Below are positions 6,510 to 7,750 of a stretch of 64,000 nt of DNA, piece by piece; positions within the stretch are counted from its first letter, which is position 1, and every line of letters starts with the position of its first letter. This stretch comes from a virus, in IMG/VR virus record IMGVR_UViG_3300031162_001060, positions 1 through 64,000 of that record. One strand, given 5' to 3'. The translations under genes and the position numbers were made by a program. The notes beneath the pieces are model-generated. The model worked only from the letters and a program-made list of their open reading frames with translations. It ran no database searches and was not told the DNA's origin.

Positions 6510-6570
6510 TACGCAAATGGGTAGAATATGTCTATATAGTTAAAACCGCATGTCTACAGGAGCTACGTCA

Positions 6571-7005
6571 ATGGTTGAGTCTATTTTGGATTTTCTGTGG
6601 AGCAGCGGATCTATCCCTGCAGTTATTACAGGATGTTTTGGTATTCTTGCTGTTTATTTACGAAAGTTTAGTCGTGAGAACACTAGGCAGCATCAAGAAT
6701 CAATGGAGCGACGTGAGCATGGGCATAGTGAAAACATGCGGATGCGTATAGAGTCTAGGTCTCGACTTGAGGATATCGTTGAAAGAATTGACTCGATAAA
6801 AGAGGATGTTAAAGAAGTCAAACAAGACTTGAATGTTCGTGTCGATGAAGTTCGAGAAGATGTCAAAGAAGTTAATATCGATATTGACAATAGAGTTGAC
6901 GAGTTAGGTCAGCGTATTGATGAGATTCGTGAAGACGTAATAGAGGTTAGAGAAAATCAGCAACGGCATATTGAGTGGCACGCTCAACAACCACCGCAGA
7001 CATAA
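6571..7005 (+). CDS. membrane-anchored coiled-coil protein
   Basis: The product has one N-terminal hydrophobic helix (about residues 10-30, GSIPAVITGCFGILAVYL) followed by a basic hinge and about 90 residues of heptad-like charged helix with repeated (V/I)(K/R)E(V/D)(K/R)(E/Q)D motifs. ATG 6571 (MVESILDF) is preferred because AGGAG lies nine bases upstream; ATG 6550 lacks a ribosome site. It sits directly before the holin, so an accessory lysis or membrane role (for example an antiholin or spanin-like partner) is possible but unproven. Confidence 0.65.
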   Translation: MVESILDFLWSSGSIPAVITGCFGILAVYLRKFSRENTRQHQESMERREHGHSENMRMRIESRSRLEDIVERIDSIKEDVKEVKQDLNVRVDEVREDVKEVNIDIDNRVDELGQRIDEIREDVIEVRENQQRHIEWHAQQPPQT

Positions 7006-7116
7006 AACTTTTAGCTAGGGTTTTCTATATAGAGACCTTCAGTAACCACACATTATTGCGGTAGAATATTAGTGGAAGCCTATGCTTCTTTTTATCCCCT
7101 TACAAGGAGAACCTTA

Positions 7117-7314
7117 ATGGATAGTAATGTATTAAAGCAAATTGCTGAGCGGTCACTGCTGACGTTTATGCAATCATTTTTAGCAATGTTTGTTATTACC
7201 GATCTTTCGTCTGCGCGAGGTGCTGCGGTTGCTGGACTTGCGGCAGTCCTGTCTGTACTTAAGTCGGCTGTGGCAACTAGGATTGGCAATCGTGAAAGTG
7301 CTTCGCTAGTCTAA
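7117..7314 (+). CDS. holin-like small membrane protein
   Basis: This 65-residue protein begins MDSNVLKQIAERSLLTFMQSF. It has two hydrophobic segments (about residues 15-29 and 36-51) separated by a short polar turn, then a charged tail. The ER-x-x-x-TF-x-x-(S/A)FLA start and ALSVLKS-type end resemble r1t/phage-type holins of actinophages. Holins form inner-membrane lesions that time lysis. A clear AAGGAG precedes ATG 7117; an upstream in-frame start at 7072 lacks one. No endolysin gene was recognised nearby. Confidence 0.7.
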   Translation: MDSNVLKQIAERSLLTFMQSFLAMFVITDLSSARGAAVAGLAAVLSVLKSAVATRIGNRESASLV

Positions 7315-7335: not shown

Positions 7336-7365
7336 TGGACAAAGGGAGCAATGGCGACATATTAT
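7336..7365 (+). promoter_or_regulatory. promoter of the 7.4-kb candidate small RNA
   Basis: TGGACA (7336-7341), an 18-base spacer and TATTAT (7360-7365). Each box matches consensus at five of six positions. The predicted start, about 7372, coincides with the 5' base of the first strong hairpin. Confidence 0.6.
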
Positions 7366-7371
7366 ATGTAT

Positions 7372-7477
7372 AGTTGAGAATGTAGTTTTTCTGCTCCTTT
7401 TGTGCTACATTCTTAATACCACTACTTAGGAGTAGTGCTTGAAAGCCCCCGGCCTAAACGCTGGGGGCTTTCTTTTT
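7372..7477 (+). ncRNA. candidate ~105-nt phage small RNA, three hairpins
   Basis: Between the holin and the convergent gene at 7454 there is a compact series of hairpins. Hairpin 1 pairs 7373-7385 with 7405-7417 (13 pairs including two G-U) around a 19-base loop containing CUGCUCCUUUUG. Hairpin 2 pairs 7420-7426 with 7431-7437 around UAGG. Hairpin 3 pairs 7441-7453 with 7460-7472 and is followed by five T, making a terminator. A promoter at 7336-7365 predicts a start exactly at hairpin 1. The loop of hairpin 1 is complementary to Shine-Dalgarno sequences such as AAAGGAG. No known RNA family was recognised. Confidence 0.6.
7441..7477 (+). terminator. strong terminator, probably bidirectional
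   Basis: GAAAGCCCCCGGC (7441-7453) pairs with GCTGGGGGCTTTC (7460-7472), then TTTTT at 7473-7477. It ends plus-strand transcription and overlaps the stop of the minus-strand gene at 7454. Confidence 0.85.
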
Positions 7478-7750
7478 GCGTCGCTTAGGGATGTGCCTGA
7501 TTCTATTGACCGCTACAGACCTGTATTGTTCCCTTCCGTACGATCCACCAAAAACGTCTACCCACTCTTCTACCGGGTTGTGCTTGGTGTTGACCACGTG
7601 GCGTTTGAACGTAAATGTCCCACGCTCCCCTGCAACTTTACATGTATCTCCTGCATGTAGGGTAACTTGCGGTGAGATGTACAAAAAGTATTCAATAACC
7701 CATCCATCCGGAGGAGTTACTGGAGCTTTGGATTTTCTTACTTTTGGCAT
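7454..7750 (-). CDS. hypothetical phage protein, 98 aa, beta-rich basic
   Basis: A 98-residue protein with a basic N-terminus (MPKVRKSK), a predicted beta core with LHAGDTCKVAGERGTFTFKRHVV and EEWVDVFGG segments, and an RSVAVNRIR / KRRKKK basic tail. The pattern (valine-rich start, G-D-x-C-K-V-x-G-x-R-G-x-F, W-V-D-V-x-G-G, R-S-x-x-x-x-R-I) resembles a small actinophage family of unknown function (DUF7246-like). GAAGGAGG precedes the ATG, with a TTGCAA-N17-TATAGT promoter upstream on the minus strand. Confidence 0.65.
   Translation of the reverse strand: MPKVRKSKAPVTPPDGWVIEYFLYISPQVTLHAGDTCKVAGERGTFTFKRHVVNTKHNPVEEWVDVFGGSYGREQYRSVAVNRIRHIPKRRKKKAPSV

Follow-up and report, generated by a model that had tools for sequence, protein, structure and literature searches.

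Does the short stretch that follows a phage holin gene encode a small RNA (sRNA) of its own and, if so, which transcripts would that RNA act on? We addressed this in a window of 64,000 bases, taken from the 65,933 bases of virus record IMGVR_UViG_3300031162_001060, in which a structured element at 7336–7477 lies between an r1t-type holin gene and a convergent DUF7246 gene (Table 1). Among cultured phages, Gordonia phage GMA6 has the closest major capsid protein (48%), which suggests an actinobacterial host. Neither DNA nor the holin and DUF7246 proteins led to near-relatives among cultured phages, and two profile scans of genome contigs with the DUF7246 and holin alignments returned no host or prophage relatives. 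Just 5′ of the holin, positions 6550–7005 encode a 151-amino-acid coiled-coil-like protein with weak matches (XhlA, E = 0.09), which may belong to the lysis cassette.

A predicted sRNA gene behind the holin

The first-pass annotation had described a near-consensus promoter, a hairpin of 13 pairs, a second hairpin and a strong terminator. All four were found again, the main hairpin (SL1) now with 14 pairs, the two terminal ones being G-U (arms 7373–7386 and 7404–7417, loop 7387–7403). The 5′ arm of SL1 starts eight bases past the last base of the −10 box, and the terminator hairpin, at 7441–7472, is followed directly by its T run. A consensus scan of the window gave 7 promoter-like sites where 6.4 were expected, so that the promoter taken alone is not above chance. 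The fold is far more stable than that of shuffled sequence: the minimum free energy of the 121-nt stretch was −49.6 kcal/mol, compared with −25.5 ± 3.3 kcal/mol after shuffling (z = −7.4). A search of Rfam 15 gave no family above its gathering score, the best sub-threshold match reaching 25.3 bits against a cut-off of 75. The earlier statement that no credible gene occupies the stretch holds for the sRNA part but not at the terminator, which the 3′ end of the DUF7246 gene overlaps. We read positions 7373–7477 as a predicted sRNA gene that is served by a separate sigma-70-type promoter and ends in an intrinsic terminator; the stable RNA would be about 105 nt long here and about 85–90 nt in most relatives.

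Table 1 Features of the holin–sRNA region, in window coordinates
Feature	Position	Strand	Evidence
Small 5′ hairpin of the holin mRNA leader, GGAAGCCTATGCTTCT	7074–7089	+	Hairpin scan
Holin leader box ATCCCCTTACAAGGAGAA, including the Shine–Dalgarno sequence	7094–7111	+	Conserved in all relatives
r1t-type holin gene	7117–7314	+	Pfam PF16945, E = 1.9e-8, above cut-off; PHROG 443 holin
Predicted sRNA promoter TGGACA-18-TATTAT	7336–7365	+	10 of 12 consensus matches; position and spacing kept in relatives
ACAAAGGGAGCA, 12-bp complement of the sRNA loop, overlapping the −35 box and the spacer	7339–7350	+	Second-best SL1-complementary place on the strand
SL1, 14-bp hairpin with 17-nt loop	7373–7417	+	Fold; covariance search; covariation
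Anti-Shine–Dalgarno loop core GCUCCUUUUGU	7393–7403	+	Identical in most relatives
SL2, second hairpin, lineage-specific	7420–7437	+	Fold; missing from L129 and sister-clade loci
Intrinsic terminator, 13 pairs then TTTTT	7441–7477	+	Scan; comparable terminator-like hairpin folds in relatives
DUF7246 gene, convergent, 3′ end overlapping the terminator	7454–7750	−	Pfam, E = 1e-12

Conservation and compensatory change in relatives

Relatives were gathered by DUF7246 homology and then by holin-clade alignment; some of the loci share contigs. In 41 of 41 other IMG/VR loci found by holin homology, which represent at least 16 distinct sequences, the element follows the holin directly and on the same strand. 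Promoter, hairpin and terminator also follow the holin in the loci found through DUF7246, a kept neighbour in L082–L088 and L104–L120. Fold z-scores in the relatives ranged from −4.9 to −8.6. Promoter position and a spacing of 17–18 bp were kept in 22 of 22 aligned haplotypes (window included), with a TTGAYY-like −35 box, a TAnnnT −10 box and the hairpin at a nearly constant distance. The loop core GCUCCUUUUGU was kept while the DUF7246 protein diverged to 49–78% identity; its variants comprise ACUCCUUUUGU, GCUCCGUUGU, CGCUCCUUUAUUGU, ACUUCUUUUGU, a short GCUCUU form and others. In L136 and other sister-clade loci, about 15–45 bases past the holin stop, the −35 region sits inside an operator-like inverted repeat, for example ATCGCTTGAT-CAACC-ATCAAGCGGT (seen by eye, without statistics).

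In covariance searches with a model built from only two sequences, each of the 13 hits in 186 kb fell at the expected position. A refined model matched 29 of 29 sources at the expected place (E = 7e-14 to 0.02), and its sole other match among those sources, in L157, was weak and antisense (E = 0.19). Applied to another 816 kb, the refined model returned the known copies and two weak matches (L030:3291–3340, minus strand, E = 0.03; L028:3112–3144, minus strand, E = 0.54). These two were the only matches in the 40 loci of distant r1t holins (among L001–L080) that the covariance search covered. Hits of a loop pattern scan other than the known relatives were rejected because they do not fold into SL1.

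The stem sequence changes while its pairing persists. Across 16 distinct sequences, 91.7% of cells were paired, compared with 77.1% in shuffled and 28–49% in slid alignments. Changes on both sides occurred in 10 of the 14 SL1 pairs, and 30 cells were changed on both sides against 10.3 ± 2.5 after shuffling, in an alignment that was fitted to the model and therefore leans towards structure; the alignment from the two-sequence model gave the same covariation picture. The earlier expectation of compensatory changes in three stems around a conserved loop was accordingly borne out for the main stem, with a nearly invariant loop, whereas the second hairpin proved lineage-specific and is missing from most relatives, including L129 and the sister-clade loci.

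The locus thus combines a predicted, conserved promoter and terminator, flanking a structured RNA, with compensatory changes that keep the structure. We consider it almost certain that this is a real, conserved phage sRNA gene, as predicted from sequence, and it would add to the known structured RNAs a family that Rfam 15 lacks. Gene, structure, conservation and holin linkage were computed; that the gene is transcribed is what we infer.

Candidate targets of the loop and the stem

The fold bore out the proposed loop presenting CUCCUUUU. An unpaired, conserved complement of GGAG is present throughout, as CUCC in most relatives and as CUUC or CUCU (with G-U pairing) in a few, and by its sequence the loop is a generic anti-Shine–Dalgarno sequence. 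Scored against shuffled loops, its fit to ribosome-binding sites had z-scores between −1.3 and −3.7 in nine records and of +1.6 in the tenth (G003), at best a weak to moderate fit to such sites in general. The first-pass annotation had named the holin site as one such partner, and here the claim parted in two: the loop is of the anti-Shine–Dalgarno type, but it does not single out the holin, which ranked 50 of 88 in the window and 27th of 79 gene families. The ranking led us to reject the holin as the preferred loop target. The AAAGGAGG site near 57.5 kb, also put forward as a loop partner, was not picked out in any scan.

Near-perfect single sites complementary to the loop occur in G001 (CACAAAAGGAGCAAA) and G002 (CAAAAGGAGCTAAA); they were rejected as covarying targets, since the two sites belong to non-orthologous genes, one of them a singleton, and the leaders of the orthologs match less well. 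The best loop-complementary leaders belonged to a HAD-like protein family, assigned by sequence motif (G008 L173–L178, L214 and five other records; combined z = −4.5). Within the window, the loop also finds a complement in ACAAAGGGAGCA, a type of match that is shorter in L138 (10 bp) and L129 (7 bp) and is missing from the sister clade. With read-through from the holin, the transcript could mask its loop by way of ACAAAGGGAGCA, whereas one started at the sRNA promoter would not.

For these comparisons, simple gene sets were made for the window and for 13 related records, some of which are fragments, and the leaders of the genes were compared with the sRNA. For the 5′ strand of SL1, the holin led the 79 families with a combined z of −5.6 (the runner-up had −3.1), in a ranking that used simple gene calls and was made after the holin complementarity had been seen by eye. 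Within the sister clade, the holin ranked 1 of 47–152 genes in G003, G005, G006, G007 and G013 and 3–7 in G001, G004, G009, G010 and G011, ten records that share ancestry and are not independent. The predicted helix between the 5′ strand and the holin leader has 11–16 bp and −22 to −25.5 kcal/mol in several sister-clade records, and mismatches shorten it in four. The two partners also show a paired change: leader GUCCCC goes with sRNA GGGGAC (L151, L157), and AUCCCC with GGGGAU (L136).

The window's own clade (G000, G002, G012) differs. There the holin ranked 66 of 88 (window), 76 of 76 and 69 of 70 for the same strand and was average for the loop, and G008 likewise lacked a holin match (103 of 215); the leaders of the window's clade have drifted in the same leader box. 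No convincing target common to this clade was found. When the whole hairpin was scored with loose duplexes, the holin was not on top, and the 5′ strand of SL1 is itself buried in the stem. The interaction search against phage mRNAs therefore put the holin at or near the top in the sister clade and not in the window's clade, and the suggested antisense regulation has a link to the holin through the 5′ strand of the stem, in the sister clade only, and not through the loop.

The holin leader has features of its own. A UAUCCCCUAACAAGGAGAA-like box is strongly conserved ahead of the holin start in all relatives, most of which carry CCCCTAACAAGGAGAA, and the relatives' leaders have a comparable short hairpin (by eye). 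As a phage-wide motif the box was rejected, with one copy in the window. Box and 5′ hairpin suggest post-transcriptional control of the holin, irrespective of the sRNA.

Proposed role and comparison with known RNAs

We propose that the RNA represses translation by base pairing, that its ancestral target was the holin, and that in the window's phage it has been retargeted or pairs through the loop alone; we regard the chances of this as about even. The hairpin would display a CU-rich anti-Shine–Dalgarno loop, and pairing at ribosome-binding sites would block translation. The ancestral and best-supported target would be the adjoining holin mRNA, whose leader sequence UCCCCUAACA, immediately upstream of the Shine–Dalgarno sequence, would pair with the 5′ strand of SL1 in the sister clade. 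This complementarity was computed, and we infer pairing in the cell, repression and, through a delay or tuning of lysis, an effect on its timing. In the window's clade, where the stem match is lost, the RNA would act through its loop or on another target.

Accounts of lysis timing usually invoke the biochemistry of the holin protein, antiholins and the structure of mRNA. Our more tentative suggestion, which we hold to be possible at somewhat under an even chance, is a dedicated lysis-timing RNA: an unrecognised sRNA family, fixed beside the r1t-type holin of uncultured aquatic phages, that keeps holin translation off by pairing at the leader; release would come once holin mRNA is plentiful enough or the sRNA declines. 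If this is true, an RNA regulator conserved beside a holin adds a layer to lysis timing, and leader and sRNA form a testable pair whose pairing can be broken and restored. Our search of the open-licence literature turned up no case of a phage holin under sRNA control, although such a negative counts for little.

Other readings share part of this evidence. The free loop CUCCUUUU could act as a generic anti-Shine–Dalgarno sequence or 16S-tail mimic, pairing with numerous ribosome-binding sites of phage or host and damping translation at large instead of serving one dedicated target. The nearly invariant loop core on varying stems is the pattern of the alpha-r14 RNAs with their ultraconserved anti-Shine–Dalgarno motif (PMC10746234), and the better-than-shuffled fit in nine of ten records and the near-perfect sites in G001 and G002 agree with it. 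However, the enrichment is modest, in G003 it runs the wrong way, and no family is clearly outstanding except one present in only six genomes. Mimicry of the 16S 3′ end, as the first-pass annotation had it, fares weakly: CUCCUUU is common to loop and 16S tail, but in most loops the base ahead of CUCC is G instead of C and mismatches the tail. Generic binding also leaves the fixed place beside the holin and the sister-clade stem match unexplained, and we think it unlikely.

The constant position 3′ of the holin on the same strand would equally suit a 3′ untranslated structure and terminator of the holin mRNA, stabilising the message or repressing it in cis through the leader, with no separate sRNA; the complementarity described above would also serve for pairing between leader and SL1 in cis. 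Moreover, read-through into SL1 is expected in the window because the scan found no terminator-like site between holin and SL1. A pure 3′ untranslated region would not need a promoter, yet the −35 and −10 boxes and the nearly fixed distance to the hairpin are kept in all 22 haplotypes, which makes this reading distinctly improbable. That the hairpin instead binds a protein or a host sRNA, as a sponge or decoy, and not phage mRNAs would account for the large, nearly invariant single-stranded loop and for the want of a convincing phage target in the window's clade; it sits poorly with the sister-clade complementarity to the holin leader, and we give it little credence.

Finally, we compared the putative repressor with known RNAs. 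Type I toxin–antitoxin RNAs of the trans-encoded kind are similar in that a small RNA adjoins the gene of a small membrane-damaging protein, with short leader complementarity in the sister clade; here, however, the protein is a phage holin, the RNA lies on the same strand, repression is putative and the match is lost in the window's clade. The actinobacteriophages D29/L5 and WC1 carry intergenic non-coding RNAs to which no function has been assigned (PMC5712189, PMC10986025); expression revealed those, whereas the RNA described here is predicted from sequence. The trans-acting alpha-r14 and NfeR1 sRNAs of Sinorhizobium have conserved anti-Shine–Dalgarno motifs in their loops, variable stems, and block ribosome-binding sites (PMC10746234). 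The phage RNA shares the conserved loop and the stems of variable sequence, but theirs are three hairpins with CCUCCUCCC on alphaproteobacterial chromosomes, and here there is one hairpin, with GCUCCUUUUGU, beside a holin. The 6C/B11 RNAs of Actinobacteria, in a passage of PMC10470900 citing Mai et al. 2019, pair through their loops with ribosome-binding sites and repress; they have two C-rich loops and are encoded by a host chromosome gene, in contrast to the one CU-rich loop of the phage RNA, which has no Rfam match. By its anatomy, the phage RNA therefore appears to resemble alpha-r14 and 6C/B11 while standing outside any Rfam family.
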